NCBI RefSeq assembly: GCF_002214365.1
Contig: NZ_CP014854.1
Location: forward strand, 744,001 to 808,000
Direction of reading: 5' to 3'
Length of the DNA stretch: 64,000 bases
Origin: Thermococcus celer Vu 13 = JCM 8558
Lineage (GTDB): Archaea > Methanobacteriota_B > Thermococci > Thermococcales > Thermococcaceae
How positions within the stretch are numbered: the stretch's first letter is position 1; the number at the start of each line of letters is the position of its first letter. Of the stretch, positions 20,921-63,129 are shown one piece after another. The notes beneath the pieces were generated by a model. That model worked only from the letters and a program-made list of their open reading frames with translations, was not told where the DNA came from and searched no databases. The position numbers and the translations under genes were made by a program.

Positions 20921-22624
20921 ATGGCGGATAAGTACGGGATTCTTCAGGATTTGATGAGGAGGAGGGGCTTCGCCTGGGGGAGCTTTGAAATCTACGGCGG
21001 TGCGAGGGGCTTTTACGATTACGGCCCGCTGGGGGCCACGATAAAGAGGAAGATCGAGCGGAAGATAAGGGAGGCCTTTCGGAGGGAGGGCTTCTTCGAG
21101 CTCGAGACCCCGGACATAACCCCCGAGAGGGTCTTCATAGCGAGCGGCCACGTTGAGAAGTTCGTTGACCCGCTCGTGGAGTGCAGGAAGTGCGGGGCGA
21201 GGTTCAGGGCCGACCACCTCGTCGAGGAGGCCCTCGGGATAGACGCGGAGGGTATGAGCGCGGAACACCTCACCCAGCTGATAAGGGAGCACGACATCCG
21301 CTGTCCGGAGTGCGGCGGTGAGCTCTCGGACGTGTGGTACTTCAACCTGATGTTCGAGACCAAAATAGGGCCCTACGGCGACCAGAAGGGCTACCTGCGG
21401 CCCGAGACGGCCCAGGGCATCTTCGTGAACTTCAAGCGCCTGAACGCCTTCGCGAGGAACAGGCTCCCCTTCGGCGTCTTCCAGATAGGCAAAGCTTACA
21501 GGAACGAGATATCGCCGAGGCAGGGGATGCTCCGTCTGAGGGAGTTCACGCAGGCCGAGGCGGAGATATTCTTCAATCCCAACGAGACCGAACATCCTCA
21601 CTTCGACGAAGTCAAACACGAAGTCCTAAGGCTCTACCCGATAGAGCACCAGCTCAAGAACCTCGGTATGATCGAGATAACGGCGGAAGAGGCCGTAAAG
21701 AAGGGCTACATAATGAACACCCTCTTCGCCTACTACATGGTCATGGTCAAGAGGGTTCTCCTCGACATCGGCATCCCCGAGGAGAAGATCAGGTTCCGCC
21801 AGCAGCTCCCGGAGGAGAGGGCCCACTATTCAAGGGACACCTGGGACGCTGAAATCCACAGCGAGCGCTTCGGCTGGGTCGAGTGCGTTGGAATAGCGAA
21901 CAGGGGCGACTACGACCTGAGCAGGCACATGAAGATGAGCGGCGCCGACTTGACAGTCCTCATTCACTACGACGAGCCGAAGATCGTGAAGAAGCTTGAG
22001 GTAAGCCTCAACATGAAGAGGGTCGGACCGAAGCTGAAGAAGGACGCCAAGAGAATAAACGAGCTGATCAAGGACTGGGACGAGGAGAAGAAGCGCGGAC
22101 TCGTTGAGCTCCTCGAAAAGGACGGGAAAGTTACCATCGAGGGCTACGAGCTTGAGAAGGACGACTTCATAATCAGCGAGGTCGAGGAGAAGATAACCGG
22201 TGAGAAGATCGTCCCGCACGTCCTCGAGCCGAGCTTTGGTATAGACAGGCCGTTCTACCTGCTCCTTGAGAACAGCCTCGTCATCGAGGAGGACAGAACC
22301 TACCTGAGGATCAAGAAGGACATGGCGCCGATTGAGGTAGCAGTGCTTCCCCTTGTTGCCAAAGAACCTCTCAAGAGCATAGCCTACGATATCTTCAGGA
22401 CGCTCCAGAAGGAGGGCTTCATAGTCGTCTACGACGAGAAGGACACAATTGGGAGGAGGTACCTCCGCTACGACGAGATTGGAACTCCCTACTGCGTAAC
22501 CGTCGACAACCAGACGCCCGAGGACGGGACCGTGACGATCAGGGACCGCGACACTAGGGAGCAGGTCAGGGTGAAGATCGAAGAACTGCCGGGGAAGTTG
22601 AAGGAACTTATTTTTGGAGGTTAG
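20921..22624 (+). CDS. glyS: Glycyl-tRNA synthetase
   Basis: The 567-aa class II synthetase has motif 1 region 'FAWGSFEIYGGARGFYDYGPLG', a Zn-ribbon-like insertion (CRKCG...CPECG), motif 2 'GKAYRNEISPRQGMLRLREFTQAE' and motif 3 'VLEPSFGIDRPFY', then an anticodon-binding domain from about residue 465 ('EVAVLPLVAKEPLKSIAYDI'). It charges tRNA-Gly (one tRNA-Gly is at the right end of this window). ATG 20921 follows GGTGGTGAG; an upstream ATG at 20891 is less likely. Its stop overlaps the end of hepT by 4 bp. Confidence 0.97.
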   Translation: MADKYGILQDLMRRRGFAWGSFEIYGGARGFYDYGPLGATIKRKIERKIREAFRREGFFELETPDITPERVFIASGHVEKFVDPLVECRKCGARFRADHLVEEALGIDAEGMSAEHLTQLIREHDIRCPECGGELSDVWYFNLMFETKIGPYGDQKGYLRPETAQGIFVNFKRLNAFARNRLPFGVFQIGKAYRNEISPRQGMLRLREFTQAEAEIFFNPNETEHPHFDEVKHEVLRLYPIEHQLKNLGMIEITAEEAVKKGYIMNTLFAYYMVMVKRVLLDIGIPEEKIRFRQQLPEERAHYSRDTWDAEIHSERFGWVECVGIANRGDYDLSRHMKMSGADLTVLIHYDEPKIVKKLEVSLNMKRVGPKLKKDAKRINELIKDWDEEKKRGLVELLEKDGKVTIEGYELEKDDFIISEVEEKITGEKIVPHVLEPSFGIDRPFYLLLENSLVIEEDRTYLRIKKDMAPIEVAVLPLVAKEPLKSIAYDIFRTLQKEGFIVVYDEKDTIGRRYLRYDEIGTPYCVTVDNQTPEDGTVTIRDRDTREQVRVKIEELPGKLKELIFGG

Positions 22625-22965
22625 CACTCCCCCTGGATTATCCGTTCTACTTCCTCTTTTAGTTCTCCAATCTGAGAGCTGACGATGACCCATACTACCG
22701 AAAGGTCAACGCCGAAATAGTGATGGACAACAACGTTTCTCAGGCCAACCACCCTTCTCCAGGGAATGGACGAATATTTCTCCCGGATACTCTCTGGGAT
22801 GTTCTTCGCAGCTTCTCCGATTATTTCAAGGTTTCTCAGAACTGCGTCAACAGTTTTTCTATCCTTTACGAAGGTTTCAAAATCATAGCCCTCGGTATAT
22901 TCTTCGATTCTCTCGATGGCCTCCAGGATATCGGTAAGGAAGAGACACGGATCACGCTTAGACAT
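22621..22965 (-). CDS. hepT: HepT-like RNase toxin (DUF86)
   Basis: The 114-aa helical HEPN protein has the R-x4-H-x-Y active motif in 'LRNVVVHHYFGVD' and the DUF86 pattern 'RNLEIIGEAAKNIPESI'. HepT toxins are RNases silenced by AMPylation of the motif Tyr by MntA. It starts 8 bp inside the end of mntA (ATGTCTAA), so the two are co-translated antitoxin first. The frame opens from a TTG at 22971; ATG 22965 is the better start. Its 3' end abuts glyS. Confidence 0.9.
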   Translation of the reverse strand: MSKRDPCLFLTDILEAIERIEEYTEGYDFETFVKDRKTVDAVLRNLEIIGEAAKNIPESIREKYSSIPWRRVVGLRNVVVHHYFGVDLSVVWVIVSSQIGELKEEVERIIQGEC

Positions 22966-23260
22966 AGACAAGTTCCCCCTTTATATGCTCCCAGAACTTC
23001 TTCCGGCTCATTGCGGCGTTCTTTGTTATGAGATCAACCTTTACCCCCAGCAGGGACTCGAGGTAGTCCTTTAAATCTACTATCTCCCAGCCTATCGGCC
23101 TCTCAAATTCGACGAGAATATCAAGGTCGCTGAGCTCGCCCTCCTCGCCCCGTGCGTAGGAGCCGAATATGGCTATACTACTGACCCCGAAACGCGTGCG
23201 GAGCTCATGTTTGTGTTCCTCCAAAGTCCTCTTGATGTCTTCCAATTTCCGCTTCATCAT
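22958..23260 (-). CDS. mntA: MntA-like minimal nucleotidyltransferase antitoxin
   Basis: The 100-aa protein has the nucleotidyltransferase motif G-S-x10-D-x-D ('GSYARGEEGELSDLDILVEF'), which binds metal and ATP. MntA AMPylates the partner HepT. A TATA-like TTTTTATT (minus strand, about 23281-23288) lies about 25 bp before the ATG pair 23260/23257 with no Shine-Dalgarno, so the message is probably leaderless. The longer frame to 23302 would cover the promoter. Confidence 0.9.
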   Translation of the reverse strand: MMKRKLEDIKRTLEEHKHELRTRFGVSSIAIFGSYARGEEGELSDLDILVEFERPIGWEIVDLKDYLESLLGVKVDLITKNAAMSRKKFWEHIKGELVYV

Positions 23261-23339
23261 TTTAACGTATAGGCCTTCATAATAAAAATGCTTTGCCAAC
23301 ACCCAACAACCCTTTAAGGGCTTTCACCAACTTGGGCAT

Positions 23340-24875: not shown

Positions 24876-25123
24876 CTTTTTCGGCCCTCAGCCCTCCCTT
24901 AAGGTGGAGTGCTCCCCTCTTGATAAGGGAAAGGTCTTCGACGACTTGAGGAGGGAGTTGATGAGCTTAACCTGCTCGCTCTCTGATTCATCAGAACCAC
25001 ACAATTGTAATTAATTACAACCCTTATTTCCCAGTTTTATATGCGCCAAGTTCTAATAATACCAACATAAAAAGAAAAAGCTTATAAGGTTAAACTACCA
25101 CAACAATATGCCCATCCACCGTA
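24876..25123. other. Boundary of AT-rich accessory cluster, with palindrome and promoter
   Basis: This 248-bp stretch has no intact gene. A GC-rich coding-like fragment (24904-25014, plus strand, 36 codons, includes 'KVFDDLRRELMSL') fades into AT-rich DNA near 24985. A perfect 16-bp palindrome TTGTAATTAATTACAA lies at 25005-25020. A TATA-like CTTATAAGG at 25081-25089, preceded by an A-rich BRE-like stretch, is about 60 bp upstream of the secreted-protein start and probably drives the cluster. Confidence 0.55.
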
Positions 25124-25125
25124 AT

Positions 25126-25138
25126 GGGGGGGGGGGGG
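25126..25138 (+). repeat. Homopolymer run of 13 G at the start region of the secreted-protein gene
   Basis: Thirteen consecutive G follow an ATG (25124-25126) and precede a second in-frame ATG (25142) by 3 bases. The run can act as an over-long Shine-Dalgarno for ATG 25142. If ATG 25124 is used it encodes four Gly, and any change not divisible by three would break the frame. Such tracts are prone to slippage during replication, and also to base-calling error. Confidence 0.9.
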
Positions 25139-25141
25139 CAA

Positions 25142-25693
25142 ATGGAGATAAGCAGAAAATACCTGATGGGGTTGTTTGTTGGGCTTGTCGTACTAGGGCT
25201 TTTGAGCCCGGCAGTATCCGCAGGAATTCCTGGAAGCGTGACTCTGAAGATAAAGCAGGAAACCTGGTGGGCTGAAGCAGATGTATACACCACTATATAC
25301 TACCGTGTTGAGACTGGATCCTATGGAATGGTCAAATTCTCCCCATTAGGGCCCCCGTATAACTATATCCACTTTGGAAGCCACTCGGGAACAGGCAGTG
25401 ATGCATATTGGAGATCCATGACAGCGGCTACTTCAGAGTACAAACACTATGCATCAGGCAACTGGCATGTTGAAGCATTGTGGAATTCTGCAGATGGAAC
25501 CATGGAAATGTGGCTATGGATCGAATACTCCGAAGCAAGCATTATGGGCACTAAGGACTTTGGGATAGAGTCTCTTGGAGAGCCATATTTAGCAGTAAGA
25601 TACACTGTTGATAGCAGTGGGGGAAATACCCTTGCAGATGAGATAAAGAACATCGCAATAGGAGTTGTCACGAGCTATGTTGTTTCAGCGTGA
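25142..25693 (+). CDS. Small secreted protein of unknown family, linked to an ABC transporter
   Basis: The 183-aa product has a clear signal peptide (basic MEISRKYL, hydrophobic core, cleavage near 'SPAVSAG'). The mature part of about 158 aa is rich in aromatic residues and predicted beta strands ('TTIYYRVETGSYGMVKFSP', 'YIHFGSHSGTGSD'), with no Cys. I recognise no family. Base composition is more AT-rich than the surrounding genes, suggesting transfer. Start ATG 25142 is used because signal peptides begin with a basic segment; ATG 25124 would add MGGGGQ. The downstream membrane protein and ABC transporter suggest it is their substrate or partner. Confidence 0.75.
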   Translation: MEISRKYLMGLFVGLVVLGLLSPAVSAGIPGSVTLKIKQETWWAEADVYTTIYYRVETGSYGMVKFSPLGPPYNYIHFGSHSGTGSDAYWRSMTAATSEYKHYASGNWHVEALWNSADGTMEMWLWIEYSEASIMGTKDFGIESLGEPYLAVRYTVDSSGGNTLADEIKNIAIGVVTSYVVSA

Positions 25694-25743
25694 TATTTTT
25701 CTATCTCTTTACTTTATAACATCAATCAAAGGGGGTATATGAG

Positions 25744-26643
25744 ATGGAGAAACGGAGGACATATCTAATCTCCGGCCTTATTTTCATCCTGCTGGCGTTT
25801 GGAATCGTTCTCTATCCCATAGCAACGTACTTCTTTGGCATCTACCTCGGCTCAAATCACGATATTCACAAACCCGGAGCGTATTTCACATACGCTGGGG
25901 CACTGCTCACCGAGCAGTACGTTTACCATTTTGAAGTTCTGGAAAACGGCAGCTACAACTTCACAGCTATCCTCTACAAAGGTTTGAAACTCCCAGGGTA
26001 CGGGTACAGCCAGGACAGAAGCCCTCCGAAGGACTGGAGGTGGCCATTCTTTGGCTCAAAGCCTTCAACAGTTACCAAAGTTTGTGAAGTCCACAGAGTA
26101 CTGCCAGAAAACGACAGCCTCGTCCAGTTCCTCTTCCCGGAGAAGACCGTCTACGTACTCAATGAGAGTCGCGAAATCGTGCCCCTGGTTGGACTTGATG
26201 AAGATGGCGGATATGTGAACTGGTACTTCCTGCCCCGCTATTTGGGATTTCCAAGGCTTTATGCCCCAAAAGGCCTCGAACGCTTTAACCGAACCTTGGC
26301 CATAAAATTGAATTCCTCGGTATATTTCCCAGTAGTGAGATATTTGAAAGGAGAAAATGGATACTATGCAATTGCAGTTCATCCCAAACTTCCTGAAGTT
26401 CTTGATCGTCTTGGACTTAGAAGGTTCTTCAACGAGTCGTGTCTTACCCGCGATCTCGATAGGTACTCTAGCCCAGGAGGCTTCCCCCAGGTCATGCTAG
26501 TCCGTACGAACGTCCAGCCCTTCTCCCAGGACTGGGGAGAGGCCTTCAAGTACAGCTTCACCCACTATGCGGCACCGGTGGACTATGTGCTTCTCCTTGC
26601 GGGCATAATACTCCTGATCCTCGCGGGGAGGGCAAACGGATGA
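25744..26643 (+). CDS. Membrane protein of unknown function in ABC cluster
   Basis: The 299-aa protein has one N-terminal membrane segment (about residues 8-36) and one at the C-terminus (about 278-295). About 240 residues lie between them, probably outside the cell, with several N-x-S/T sites and only two Cys. I recognise no family. ATG 25744 follows GGGGG at 25731-25735. It overlaps the ABC ATPase start (ATGA at 26640-26643), so it is part of the same operon. It could be an accessory or immunity component, but this is inference. Confidence 0.75.
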   Translation: MEKRRTYLISGLIFILLAFGIVLYPIATYFFGIYLGSNHDIHKPGAYFTYAGALLTEQYVYHFEVLENGSYNFTAILYKGLKLPGYGYSQDRSPPKDWRWPFFGSKPSTVTKVCEVHRVLPENDSLVQFLFPEKTVYVLNESREIVPLVGLDEDGGYVNWYFLPRYLGFPRLYAPKGLERFNRTLAIKLNSSVYFPVVRYLKGENGYYAIAVHPKLPEVLDRLGLRRFFNESCLTRDLDRYSSPGGFPQVMLVRTNVQPFSQDWGEAFKYSFTHYAAPVDYVLLLAGIILLILAGRANG

Positions 26644-27461
26644 GGGTGGAGGCAGAGAACCTAAAGGTCAGCTACGGGAGGGTCTGGGGGCTAAAAGGAG
26701 TCAGCTTCAATGCCAAGGCCGAGAGAATAGCCGTCGTGGGGCACAATGGAAGCGGAAAAACGACTCTGCTTTCAGTTCTTTCTGGTCTGAGAAAGCCAAC
26801 GGAGGGGAGGGCCACTATAAACGGTGAGGAACCCTACAGCAGAAAAGACAAATGGGTCGCCATAAGGTACTCCTTTGAGAAGCCTCAGTTTTCTATTCCC
26901 ATTAAGGTCAAGGACTTAGTCGAGACTCTGAGAGTAAACGACAGGTGCTCTCTTGTTGACGAACTCGTCGAAGAGCTTGGAATAAAAGAGTTCATCGATC
27001 AGCGCCTCGACGGTCTCTCCAGCGGTCAGGCACAGCTGTGCAACCTTCTCATGGCCCTTTCCTGCGATGCAGAGGTGGTCATTCTGGACGAGCCTACAGC
27101 CCATCTTGACTCATACAGGGCAGGGATAATAGATGATCTGCTTTCCAAGAGGAAGGGGCTCATAATAGCGACCCACGACCCGGAGGAAGGAGAAGCGGTG
27201 GCGGAGCACTTCCTCATACTGAAGGAGGGAAGGCTCGTATGGGAAGGTAGCAGGAGGAAGCTTTTTGCAGAGGGGGTCTATGAAATAACCCTGGCCGAAA
27301 ACGGGGGCAAACTCCCGGAGGAGGTTCAAGTCGTCCACAGCTTTGGGGCAATAGTAGTAGCCCGGGCTGATGAGGAGCTTTTAAGTGAACTCTTTAGAAA
27401 GGGAATAATAGCGGGCTTCAAACGGGCGGGGTTGCGCTATGCTTACGCGGAAAGCCGTTAA
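26640..27461 (+). CDS. ABC transporter ATP-binding protein
   Basis: The 273-aa ATPase has Walker A 'VVGHNGSGKTTLLS', Q-loop region 'YSFEKPQFSIP', signature 'LDGLSSGQAQL', Walker B 'AEVVILDEPTAHLDS' and switch His 'IATHDPEE'. The C-terminal 70 residues form a small added domain. It powers the permease that starts 23 bp before its end. Both face the same way as the secreted-protein gene. Confidence 0.92.
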   Translation: MRVEAENLKVSYGRVWGLKGVSFNAKAERIAVVGHNGSGKTTLLSVLSGLRKPTEGRATINGEEPYSRKDKWVAIRYSFEKPQFSIPIKVKDLVETLRVNDRCSLVDELVEELGIKEFIDQRLDGLSSGQAQLCNLLMALSCDAEVVILDEPTAHLDSYRAGIIDDLLSKRKGLIIATHDPEEGEAVAEHFLILKEGRLVWEGSRRKLFAEGVYEITLAENGGKLPEEVQVVHSFGAIVVARADEELLSELFRKGIIAGFKRAGLRYAYAESR

Positions 27462-28122
27462 ATGGTACCTGAAGGGGCTCTTTCCTCCTGCCGCAACTTC
27501 TGTTCTCCTACTGCTCACCTTCATTGCCGCAGATTCATCCCTGAAGGCGATAAAGACCTACGGGCCGGGCCAGTTCATCTCCCTCATGGAGTATATCTTT
27601 TTTCCGATCTATGCCCTCCTCATAGGTTCCCATGTGTTCCGGGACTCTAGGACAACGATATTCGAGCTCTCAGTGTTCAACGGTCCAAAAAGGGTGTTCA
27701 TCGGCAGACTTACATCAGTGACCATCGGCCTTCTACCGGGGATTGCAGGTGTTGCACTCTTGGCCTGGTGGAGGGGATATACCTACTTCGTTTCGCCCCT
27801 GCTCCTCAAAATCCCCATCTACATTGCATTCATAGCCGTGCTCATGACCTACCTCGACTCCCTAGCCGGAACGCTTATACTCTTCGTCCTCACCTCCGCC
27901 GTTCCTATGTCCTTCAGCGTGCTCCTTGGAAAGCCCAACGGGGACACCGTGAACACTCTCATGAGCGGCCTCGCATACCTTTTTGCACCTATTACAGCAA
28001 CAAAATATGAACCCTTGTTGAGCATCGGAAACTCCACCGGCTACAGCCTGGCGATAATTCTCTCAATATTGCTGATTTTATGGGCATACACCGCCTTTTC
28101 AAGAAGGGAGTTTGTTCCCTGA
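27439..28122 (+). CDS. ABC-2-type transporter permease
   Basis: The 227-aa protein has six hydrophobic segments (from about residues 12-30, 48-66, 92-108, 120-138, 142-160 and 200-218) and no soluble domain, fitting an ABC-2-type exporter subunit. It overlaps the ATPase gene by 23 bp, so translation is coupled. With one ATPase and one permease gene it would form a homodimeric exporter. Substrate unknown; the secreted product or its processed form is the simplest guess. Confidence 0.82.
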   Translation: MLTRKAVKWYLKGLFPPAATSVLLLLTFIAADSSLKAIKTYGPGQFISLMEYIFFPIYALLIGSHVFRDSRTTIFELSVFNGPKRVFIGRLTSVTIGLLPGIAGVALLAWWRGYTYFVSPLLLKIPIYIAFIAVLMTYLDSLAGTLILFVLTSAVPMSFSVLLGKPNGDTVNTLMSGLAYLFAPITATKYEPLLSIGNSTGYSLAIILSILLILWAYTAFSRREFVP

Positions 28123-28146
28123 TCTTTTCTTTTTATACCCACAAGC

Positions 28147-28509
28147 TCAGTGGTACTTCAGAAAGGCCATGTAGAAGAAGGCCCCGCCAGCAAGGGCAAG
28201 CCCGCCGGCGAAAACGTAGAGAAAGCCCTGCCCTTTGTACCTGATTTTGACGGTGTAACATCCGCTGTCAGGCGAATACGAGTAATCAAGAGGAACCCTG
28301 CGCAGGATAACGTTCTGCCTGTAGGCGACGAAGGCATCACCGCTCTCCCCAGAAACCCGGAGGAAACCGTCCGAGACGCTGACGTAGTAGTCCCCCAGCT
28401 TTCCGTGGGATCCCTCGCAGAATTCACCACTTAACGTCTGCCCGGGATAAACGAGGGCAAGAACCGCCAGTGCCAGCCCGAGCAGGAGAAGGTACTCTTC
28501 GGCTTCCAT
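28147..28509 (-). CDS. Small two-pass membrane protein, unknown
   Basis: The 120-aa product has a hydrophobic N-terminal segment (about residues 5-25), an extracytoplasmic-looking middle with two Cys ('GEFCEG', 'DSGCYTV') that could form a disulfide, and a C-terminal membrane segment (about 95-115). No family is recognised. It is convergent with the ABC permease and lies 45 bp upstream of the gap stop in the neighbouring unit. The opposite-strand frame here is an antisense shadow. Confidence 0.6.
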   Translation of the reverse strand: MEAEEYLLLLGLALAVLALVYPGQTLSGEFCEGSHGKLGDYYVSVSDGFLRVSGESGDAFVAYRQNVILRRVPLDYSYSPDSGCYTVKIRYKGQGFLYVFAGGLALAGGAFFYMAFLKYH

Positions 28510-59984: not shown

Positions 59985-61964
59985 TCAGCCGTAGTAGACG
60001 ACGGCCTTGAGCTGGTAGTCCGCCCAGCCGTAGGTGCTGTAGGCGTAGACGAGGAACGTCCAGGTTCCCGGGGCGGGGTTGGCGTACTCGACGTGCTCGT
60101 AGCTGTTGCTCGACGTGGACCTGTCAACGAGGTTGCCGTTGGGGTCGTAGAGGTAGAGGTCGAGGTCGTTGTAGGAAGTATCGAAGGTCAGGTCACCGGT
60201 TATCTTGGTGGCACCGCTGTTGACGTTCATGGTGAAGGTGTCGCTGGTGTCCCAGTAGTCGTTAACGGAGCCGGTGAAGGTCTGGGTGTCGGTGGTCGGG
60301 GTTGGGTTCGGGTTGGGGTTTGGATTCGGGTTGCCGCCGCCGGACTGGCTGAGGCTCCCGTCGCTGACGACGTCGACCTGGTAGTTCGCCGCGCCCTTGT
60401 AGCTGACGACCTTGACCGTCCAGGTTCCGGCGGTCGGGTTGTAGTAGCCGACCTTCTCGAAGCCGTAGTAGGCGGTGTAGGAGTAGTCAACCTCGTTCCC
60501 GTTGGGGTCGTAGAGGTAGAGGTCGATGTCGCTCGAGCCCGTGTCCCAGTAGAGGGTGGCGGTCACGAAGGTGGCGCCGCTGACGTCGAAGGTGTGGGTG
60601 GCGCTTCCCTTGTCGGCGACGGAGCCGGTGAAGGTGAGCTTGGCGTAGTCGTCGTACTTGATGGCCTTGTAGACGTTCACCCTACCCGCACCGTAGGCGA
60701 TGTCCGCTATCTCCTTGGGGGCGACTATGTCGGCGGTCTCGATGAGGGCGGTCTTCACCTTGTCCGGGGTCCAGCTCGGGTGGGCCTGGAGGATGAGCGC
60801 GGCAACGCCCGAAACGTGCGGGGTGGCCATGCTGGTTCCAGAGGCCTTGGTGTAGTAGTCGTTTATCGGGGTGCCCATGCTGGTTCCGCTGGCGCGCGGG
60901 GCTATGATGTCAACGCCGGGGGCGACGACTTCCGGCTTGAGCCTTCCGTCCGCGGTCGGTCCCCTGCTGGAGAAGCTGGCGATGTTGTCGTTGCTGTCAA
61001 CTGCACCGACGGTTATGACCTTGCTCGCGGCGGCGGGTGAGCCGACGGTGTAGGTGTTCGGCCCGCTGTTGCCGGCGGCGACGCAGACTACTATACCGGC
61101 GTCCCAGGCGTTGTTGACGGCCTGACTGAGGGAGTCGGTTCCGTCGGAGCTCTGGGAGGAGCCGAGGGAGAGGTTGATGACCCTTATCCCGTACTTGTCC
61201 TTGTTCTGGACGACCCAGTCAACACCCGCGATGATGGTGGAGACGCTTCCCGAACCGTCGGCACCGAGAACCTTGACGCCGACGAGCTTCGCGCCGGGGG
61301 CGACGCCTATGTACTGGGAGTTAACGCTGCCGGTTCCGGCAACGATACCCGCAACGTGGGTTCCGTGTCCCTGGTCATCGTAGGGGGTCGACCTGCCGTT
61401 GACGGCGTCGTACCAGCCTATGACCTTGCCCTTCAGATCGGGGTGGTTCGCGTCTATACCCGTATCGACGATGGCAACCACCACACCGCTTCCGTCGTAG
61501 CCGAGGGAGTTCCAGACGGTATCGGCCCCTATCTGGGAGACGGAAGTGGCGTCGTCAACCTGAACCTTGTAATCCTCCTGTATGAACTTTATGCCCGAGA
61601 CCCTTGTGTTACCGAAGTAACCCGTGTCTATCATGCCCGCGATCAGCAGAAGGTCCCTGGCCTTTATTTTAACCGCGACAGCAGGGATTATCTTGTAGGA
61701 GTACTTGACCTGGGCGCCCATGAGCCTCAGTACCTTAACCGCCCTGTCCCTGTCTCCGTAGCTCCCGAACATTATGACGGTGTCCACTTCCTGGTTCCAG
61801 TTCATCCTCTGGACTTTCTTGAACAGTCCCGGGGTCAGCAGTCCGTAGTTCTTCTGCTGAACCGCGTTGTTCCTGACAACCGGTTTTACGGGTGCCGCAA
61901 GGGCCGTTCCGGCCAGAAGACCCACGAGCACCAGTGCCAGCACCACAGCACCTAACCTCTTCAT
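59985..61964 (-). CDS. Secreted subtilisin-like serine protease (Tk-SP type)
   Basis: The 659-aa precursor has a signal peptide (1-23), an N-propeptide with a beta-alpha I9-like fold (about 45-135), then the S8 domain with D167 ('AIVDTGID'), H203 ('GHGTHVAG'), oxyanion N299 ('AAGNSGP') and S378 ('GTSMATPHV'). Two bacterial pre-peptidase C-terminal-type domains follow (about 440-535 and 555-659), split by an N-P repeat linker. Length and order match Tk-SP (663 aa) of T. kodakarensis. Three inverted repeats lie upstream. Confidence 0.96.
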
Positions 61965-61985
61965 TCCAGTACCCTCCTATCCAAC

Positions 61986-62004
61986 ATGTCCCATATCGGG
62001 ACAT
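61986..62004. promoter_or_regulatory. Inverted repeat at the protease promoter
   Basis: ATGTCCC-ATATC-GGGACAT is a perfect repeat (7-bp arms, 5-bp spacer), framed by outer arms TATCCAA (61978-61984) and TTGGATA (62018-62024). A TATA-like TTTTTAATG (minus strand, about 62033-62025) lies 25 bp upstream, so the repeat sits on the expected start site. A repressor operator is inferred. Confidence 0.55.
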
Positions 62005-62063
62005 CGAAGTACTGATATTGGATACATTAAAAAGTTTACGCAACAGTGTTTCTTCCATTTATA

Positions 62064-62101
62064 TACATTACAGTAATGTACATCTTTATGTAACATAAAG
62101 A
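62064..62101. repeat. Two further inverted repeats upstream of the protease gene
   Basis: TACATTAC-A-GTAATGTA (62064-62080) is a perfect repeat around one base. Two bases later TCTTTATG-TAA-CATAAAGA (62083-62101) is a second perfect repeat. Both lie upstream of the protease TATA element, where an activator could bind. Confidence 0.5.
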
Positions 62102-62400
62102 AGCCAACTCCGTTTCATAAATTTCAGCAAACGACACAATTCCTTAATGCCCGGTCACCCAAAACCATCAACGATGAACGATAAGCGCCCGTTTCAGCAG
62201 TTAATTAGGACGATAAAAATATAACGTAGGGTAATGTTTGAAACCCACAAAGTTGGGGATAAGATGGTGAATATCGACATAATGGACATCAACCCGTGGC
62301 TCGGAGGGGTCCAATTAACCCCATCCCTAAACGCGAAATTGTCATGAGGAGGTGTAACATTAAGCGGAAAAGCATTAAATACCAAAACATAGCATGGAAC
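62102..62400. other. Intergenic region before the TauE paralogue, with a possible short remnant
   Basis: No intact gene. A 27-codon frame at 62264-62347 ('MVNIDIMDINPWLGG' onward) recalls the N-terminus of an archaeal AAA-ATPase family ('INPWW'), but stops after 27 codons, so it may be a remnant. A TATA-like AAAATATAA at 62215-62223 precedes it and CATTAAATACC (62373-62383) precedes the TauE gene. Confidence 0.4.
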
Positions 62401-63129
62401 ATGAGGACGCTCCTTATAGCACTTCTCTCTTTTGGAGGGGGATTCATAGGCTCCATGATGAGCGGAGGGAGTATGGTAATCCTTTCAATTCTCACCTTCG
62501 CCGGGCTCCCCATAAAAGAAGCCGTTGGGATCCTGAAGGTCGTCATAGCGGCCCTAACCTTCGTATCCACACTCACCTACTTTAGAGGTGGAGCGCTCGA
62601 TGTTAAGCTTGCGCCACTCTTGACGATCTCGTCAATTTTTGGCGCATTTATCGGGACCTCACTTTTTCTATCCCTTTCTCAGGAACTGGCTAATTTCATA
62701 GCTGCTGCACTCCTGCTGGCGGGGATGTACTTCACCGTAAGATTCAAGCCGGGAAGTGAGGGCAAGCATGGAAGGAAGAGTAAAGCGGAGATCTCAATAG
62801 TGGGGCTGCTCATAGGGGCCTACATTGGGATCCTCGGAATAGCATCCACCCTGGTGGTTATCTCAGCCCTGGAGATATTCTTCAGGCTGGACATACTCAA
62901 GGCAAATGGAACCGCGAAAATGATAATCTTCCTGAATAATACAATGGCGGCACTCAACTATGGACTGAAGGGAAGCCTGGATTACTCCATGATGTGGCCC
63001 ATTCTGATCCCCGTGATGGTGGGTTCGTGGCTGGGGGCCAAAAGCGCTTTAAGGATGGGGAGCGAGAAGCTCAGGATCGTTTTTATCGCGATAGGAGCTC
63101 TAACGCTTTTGAGGATACTCTTTGGATGA
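62401..63129 (+). CDS. TauE/SafE-family anion transporter (paralogue 2)
   Basis: The 242-aa membrane protein aligns along its length with the product at 23340-24077 ('GGGFIGSMMSGGSMVILSILTFAGLP', 'GAYIGILGIASTLVVISALE'). The frame opens at 62296, but ATG 62401 matches the paralogue's start and lies about 25 bp after CATTAAATAC with no ribosome site, so it is probably leaderless. Function: likely export of sulfite or a related anion. Confidence 0.85.
   Translation: MRTLLIALLSFGGGFIGSMMSGGSMVILSILTFAGLPIKEAVGILKVVIAALTFVSTLTYFRGGALDVKLAPLLTISSIFGAFIGTSLFLSLSQELANFIAAALLLAGMYFTVRFKPGSEGKHGRKSKAEISIVGLLIGAYIGILGIASTLVVISALEIFFRLDILKANGTAKMIIFLNNTMAALNYGLKGSLDYSMMWPILIPVMVGSWLGAKSALRMGSEKLRIVFIAIGALTLLRILFG

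Follow-up and report, generated by a model that had tools for sequence, protein, structure and literature searches.

Why would a small secreted protein stand at the head of an operon that otherwise encodes a membrane protein and an ABC transporter? This question is raised by four consecutive genes, designated here A to D (Table 1), in a 64-kb window that corresponds to positions G000:C1:744001-808000 of a complete 1.87-Mb genome, whose related public records come from Thermococcus. The original prediction, based on this stretch of DNA, described an AT-rich cluster of secreted-effector and protection genes that included an ABC exporter for the secreted product. The ORFs are arranged as it described, on the same strand, with a gap of 50 nt between A and B and overlaps of 4 nt between B and C and of 23 nt between C and D. 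The AT-richness resides mostly in the leader, A, and B (GC content of 0.44 to 0.47; 0.44 for A and 0.47 for B), as C and D are near 0.54, compared to ∼0.58 for most of the window. Another AT-rich stretch is found in the same window at positions 61500-63000 (GC content of 0.46 to 0.48). Given the presence of orthologues in 14 genomes and dN/dS ratios far below 1, the cassette is not a chance assembly of ORFs.

Table 1. Features of the cassette and of its second version (positions are those of the window unless a locus is named)
Feature	Position	Strand	Description
Perfect 16-bp palindrome TTGTAATTAATTACAA, candidate operator	25005..25020	.	One site per genome
TATA box-like element TTATAAGG	25082..25089	+	∼60 nt before the A start codon; read from the sequence
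5' leader, potential hairpin TGCCC...ATGGGGGGGGGGGGGCA	25108..25141	+	Ends just before the A start
Gene A	25142..25693	+	183-aa secreted protein, putative toxin/effector; from the ORF listing
Gene B	25744..26643	+	299-aa membrane protein, putative immunity/sensor subunit
Gene C	26640..27461	+	ABC ATPase; PF00005, E=1.5e-25, and motifs
Gene D	27439..28122	+	Six-TM permease, ABC-2-like by size and topology
Second version, A'-B'-C'-D'	L071:7340-9800 and L072:6440-9284		Different conserved neighborhood

Protein A starts, as had been claimed, with a signal peptide, a hydrophobic segment ending in AVSA↓G that has been assigned by inspection to the Sec type with an A-x-A site (signal peptides were called by eye throughout). 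The mature protein would comprise ∼155 amino acid residues (about 28-183), contains no cysteines, and is nearly devoid of N-x-S/T sequons. Wherever it is present, A is under purifying selection (dN/dS of 0.08 to 0.16). Its AlphaFold2 model is all-beta but unreliable (pLDDT of 43), its quality being insufficient for fold searches, and A has no recognizable toxin fold. Searches for a known, unrelated family to which the 183-aa product might belong yielded none in Pfam or NCBIfam (up to E=1), PHROGs, PADLOC, or PDB sequence profiles; B likewise had no match among the PDB profiles, and neither the homologues of A nor the A' protein discussed below matched Pfam up to E=5. Beyond the phylum, the coverage consisted of pattern-based scans of public contigs with A, so distant relatives may exist: the sequence of A alone had no match, and a profile of A retrieved Thermococcus records only.

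Protein B has exactly two transmembrane (TM) segments, at residues 8-26 and 276-294, with a beta-rich domain between them. All 7 N-x-S/T sequons of the window protein are located between these two segments, and in ten B proteins taken together sequons occur at 4.3 times the shuffled expectation. The two-TM topology and the placement and enrichment of the sequons support an extracellular location of this domain, consistent with the predicted membrane protein with a large outer domain. AlphaFold2 modeled B with confidence (pLDDT of 85), and a Foldseek search of the PDB and viral models with this structure returned no match at E<0.1. Protein C retains the complete set of Walker A, LSSGQ, Walker B, and H-loop motifs, and D contains six hydrophobic or TM segments, so that the two combine the features of an ABC-2-like transporter, an ATPase with both Walker motifs and the signature paired with a six-TM permease. 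Neither B nor D matched any Pfam or NCBIfam family, including the permease families and bacteriocin-immunity models. Across Pfam, NCBIfam, PHROGs, and PADLOC, the ATPase domain of C was the sole match for the cassette, with nothing found for A, B, D, or A'; the PADLOC defense models recognized C as a generic ATPase only. The suggestion that A belongs to no recognizable family thus holds and applies to B and D as well.

The genomic distribution of these genes was examined in 94 genomes of the family for A and in 115 genomes of the phylum for B and D; most of the carrier genomes are draft or metagenome assemblies. B and D co-occur in the same 14 of the 115 genomes, all of them from Thermococcus, whereas A is found in 8 of the 94, directly upstream of B-C-D in all 8. 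In no genome scanned was A encountered without adjacent B-C-D, so the four genes do travel together and the ABC genes are not confined to loci without A. Of the 20 loci that encode D, 13 belong to the window's type and the other 7 to a second, divergent one. Among the 13, A is intact in 7 (G000, G041, G055, G047, G058, G060, and G054), interrupted by an internal TGA in G056, reduced to the leader and a signal-peptide stub in G050 and to the leader alone in G045, and absent from G020 and G032; the G064 locus is cut by the contig end. Thus, at least 4 events of loss or disruption of A are seen in this version, and B-C-D are intact at every locus affected, although the G050 copy spans two contigs. 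In the A-less pair G020 and G032, the dN/dS values of 0.04 to 0.12 for both B genes, C, and D indicate purifying selection. Two B genes are present in every A-deleted locus of the window's type and in none of those with an intact A. According to the B tree, a second B was gained three times independently, always at A-less loci: by one duplication in G020/G032, by another in G045, and, in G050, as a more divergent copy of separate origin. The cassette therefore displays the pattern expected of a toxin gene that is never alone and immunity genes that sometimes are, with the caveat of a discordant locus in G054, which combines an intact A with a frameshifted B; the neighboring DUF167 gene is intact and thus gives no sign of a general assembly fault.

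In the second version of the cassette (7 loci), wherever it is intact, the position of A is occupied by an unrelated secreted protein, A'. In G055 and G050, A' comprises ∼160 aa with a signal peptide and, like A, contains no cysteine; in the second-type locus of G054 it is frameshifted. A common origin of A and A' was considered and is unsupported by sequence (hhalign probability of 2%). A weak match to A' in G004 (E of 0.0095, with stops) was dropped, as no cassette protein was detectable in the surrounding 12 kb. In the second-type locus of G041 (L042:4515-7684), the ABC pair is flanked on either side by B-like genes, and A' is missing.

The slot that the cassette occupies in most carriers is bordered by the DUF167 and GAPDH genes (positions 24876-28150 of the window). 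The same slot is empty in G013, G026, G034, and G072, and G020, G032, G045, G060, and G056 carry the cassette at other sites. Between G047 and G058, identity is 0.83 to 0.91 across the cassette, including the leader, and drops to 0.72 to 0.80 immediately outside it on both sides (farther off, in the better conserved glyS region, it is 0.77 to 0.89). The dS values of the cassette genes in this pair (0.37 to 0.60) are a third to half of that of GAPDH (1.14); in the pair G055 and G050, they are 0.07 to 0.13 versus 0.33. The drop in identity and the low dS of the cassette indicate its horizontal replacement between Thermococcus species by recombination. With regard to mobile elements, B was not found in plasmids, phages, or viral contigs, nor was A in plasmids or viral contigs.

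Neither the 5' leader of A nor the second version with its different secreted protein had been recognized in the original prediction. A pattern derived from the palindrome, TTGTAANNANTTACWA, has a single site each in G000, G041, G055, and G050, always upstream of this operon; in these four genomes, the TTGTAATnAATTACAA-like palindrome precedes the TATA element, and no other site is found in any of them. TATA-like elements similar to that of the window precede most of the homologous A leaders. Every A gene is preceded by a TGCCC-like stretch, a short spacer, and a G-run ending in GCA or similar, followed by the start codon. A strict form of this leader pattern has 9 matches in the 94 genomes, 7 of which precede A or a remnant of A; the other two lie elsewhere in their genomes and were judged to be due to chance. 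The window leader escapes the strict pattern only because its G-run (25126-25138) consists of 13 G, compared to 7 to 9 G in its relatives; the G-run is degraded as well in G056, with its dead copy of A. The palindrome and the poly-G leader are, each, essentially unique to this operon, and the 13-G homopolymer is the only run of at least 8 G on either strand of the window. Loci of the second type have TGCCCCTTATGGGGCA at the leader position, and a short GCCCC-TTAT-GGGGC hairpin precedes A' in L071 and L072. Folding z-scores are modest, from -0.2 to -1.7 for the A leaders (about -1.4 in the window), -2.8 in G045, and -2.3 before A', which makes a hairpin over the ribosome-binding region plausible, not proven. 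One might speculate that the length of the G-run affects translation by slippage; its variation might also make expression variable. An upstream ORF in the leader was rejected as coding, since neither its frame nor its initial ATG is conserved, and Rfam provided no credible match.

The maintenance of B-C-D without A, the lack of A without B-C-D, and the second B at A-less loci favor a toxin accompanied by membrane immunity. The unrelated A' at the position of A, the horizontal replacement of the cassette, and the outward-facing domain of B also speak for this view, as does the pneumococcal parallel described below. We therefore lean, if only slightly, toward viewing this locus as a horizontally exchanged antagonism and self-protection cassette of Thermococcus, with a secreted A and membrane immunity provided by B-C-D; the layout of secreted effector and protection genes proposed originally is supported, as are the linkage of the four genes and the absence of known families. 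A would leave the cell by the general Sec route, fold outside, and act at the surface of its competitors, which are probably related archaea. B, a membrane-anchored protein with an outward-facing domain, could meet A or A-like proteins at the surface of the producer itself, and the ATP-powered C-D pair could work with B to clear or neutralize A, as LanI/LanFEG-type immunity does for lantibiotics. Loss of A would then turn a producer into a protected nonproducer, and a second B might widen its protection. Several observations count against reading A as a weapon: selection on A is purifying, not diversifying (dN/dS of about 0.1), no toxin fold is recognizable in its poorly modeled structure, and the intact A next to a frameshifted B in G054 speaks against an obligatory antidote, unless it reflects an assembly error. 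B-C-D could also serve another function that outlives A.

Such a function might be general efflux in response to envelope stress or toxic compounds, with A and A' as accessory secreted binding or decoy proteins. The maintenance of B-C-D without A and the purifying selection on A would both fit this explanation, and the single-site operator suggests induction by a signal. However, it does not easily explain why A is never found alone, why an unrelated A' occupies the same position, or why the cassette is patchily distributed and horizontally replaced, so that we consider it unlikely. Still slightly less credit can be given to the possibility that B-C-D form a dedicated exporter or assembly machine with A as its substrate, a surface or matrix protein, even though the strict linkage and the order A-B-C-D speak for it. 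The Sec-type signal of A itself and the purifying selection that still acts on B-C-D after the deletion of A both make C-D less likely as the exporter of A and go against the ABC exporter of the original prediction, immunity or self-protection being the better role for B-C-D; moreover, duplicated B genes are found exactly at the loci that lack A. A signaling or recognition unit, with A as the secreted signal and B-C-D as the receptor through which nonproducers listen, would account for the extracellular domain of B and for the common A-less receivers but is improbable, as no regulator is encoded in or beside the cassette (ORF listing and Pfam) and an ABC-2-like permease would be an unusual signal receptor.

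Taken further, the cassette may represent a new class of archaeal killing systems, with Sec-secreted proteins outside all known families (at least two unrelated types, A and A'), a two-TM surface protein of its own, and an immunity pump of the ABC type, spread among Thermococcus species by recombination and equipped with its own palindromic operator and poly-G hairpin leader; this broader proposal is tentative, and we rate it slightly below an even chance. By analogy, its closest counterparts are the lactococcin 972-type loci, in which the gene for a Sec-secreted bacteriocin with a beta-sandwich fold precedes two genes whose presumed role in immunity and transport is not yet verified experimentally (PMC11796350). 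The logic is the same, with no sequence relation: here, too, the operon opens with a Sec-secreted, cysteine-free protein that is followed by membrane and transporter proteins. Cassettes that lack the structural gene are also common in both; in pneumococcus, 27.5% of the genomes keep scbBC of the streptococcin B locus (scbABC) without the bacteriocin gene (PMC11796350). Lcn972 forms a beta sandwich, and A is only predicted to be beta-rich (from a model with pLDDT of 43). At about 155 aa in its mature form, A is larger. A and A' match no Pfam family, that of Lcn972 included, and hence fall outside that family by sequence; B and D are without a match to any known immunity family in Pfam or NCBIfam. 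The target of Lcn972 is lipid II, which archaea do not make.

The pairing of a putative immunity protein with an ABC transporter also resembles that of LanI and LanFE(G), which can act alone or together (PMC8538875). B, with its two TM helices and no family match, differs from the LanI proteins, and no lanthipeptide precursors or modification enzymes were found in or beside the cassette in the ORF listing or by Pfam. LanI proteins are typically lipoproteins. Within the Thermococcales, the VARTIG modules are variable loci in which secreted or surface proteins, centered on large Ig-domain proteins with hypervariable C termini, are followed by membrane proteins suspected of immunity (PMC8416519). 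In contrast, A is small and not hypervariable, and the cassette includes an ABC transporter, a term that PMC8416519 never uses.

Sulfolobicins and halocins (archaeocins) are likewise secreted antimicrobial proteins of archaea, but A and A' match no database family. Very few antimicrobial proteins have been described from archaea, and, to our knowledge, none from Thermococcus has been characterized. If A inhibits other members of Thermococcus, the cassette would supply a heat-stable antimicrobial protein together with the system that confers immunity to it. As some members of the genus are transformable, the toxin, the immunity, and the target would then be directly testable, and the recurrent losses of A and additions of another B would give access to the dynamics of producer, resistant, and sensitive strains among vent archaea.

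The slot of the cassette is variable across Thermococcus. In other species, it may hold an amino acid transporter, a PhzF-like isomerase, a VapBC-like pair, or ATPases (by inspection). Just downstream of D, on the opposite strand (28147-28509), is a gene for a protein of 120 aa with TM segments at both termini, two cysteines, and no Pfam or NCBIfam family; since it is also present at the cassette-free sites of G026, G072, and G034, it is not part of the cassette. On the other side, a HepT-like/nucleotidyltransferase (MntA-type) toxin-antitoxin pair (22621-23302, minus strand) adjoins glyS and is kept beside the slot in many relatives.
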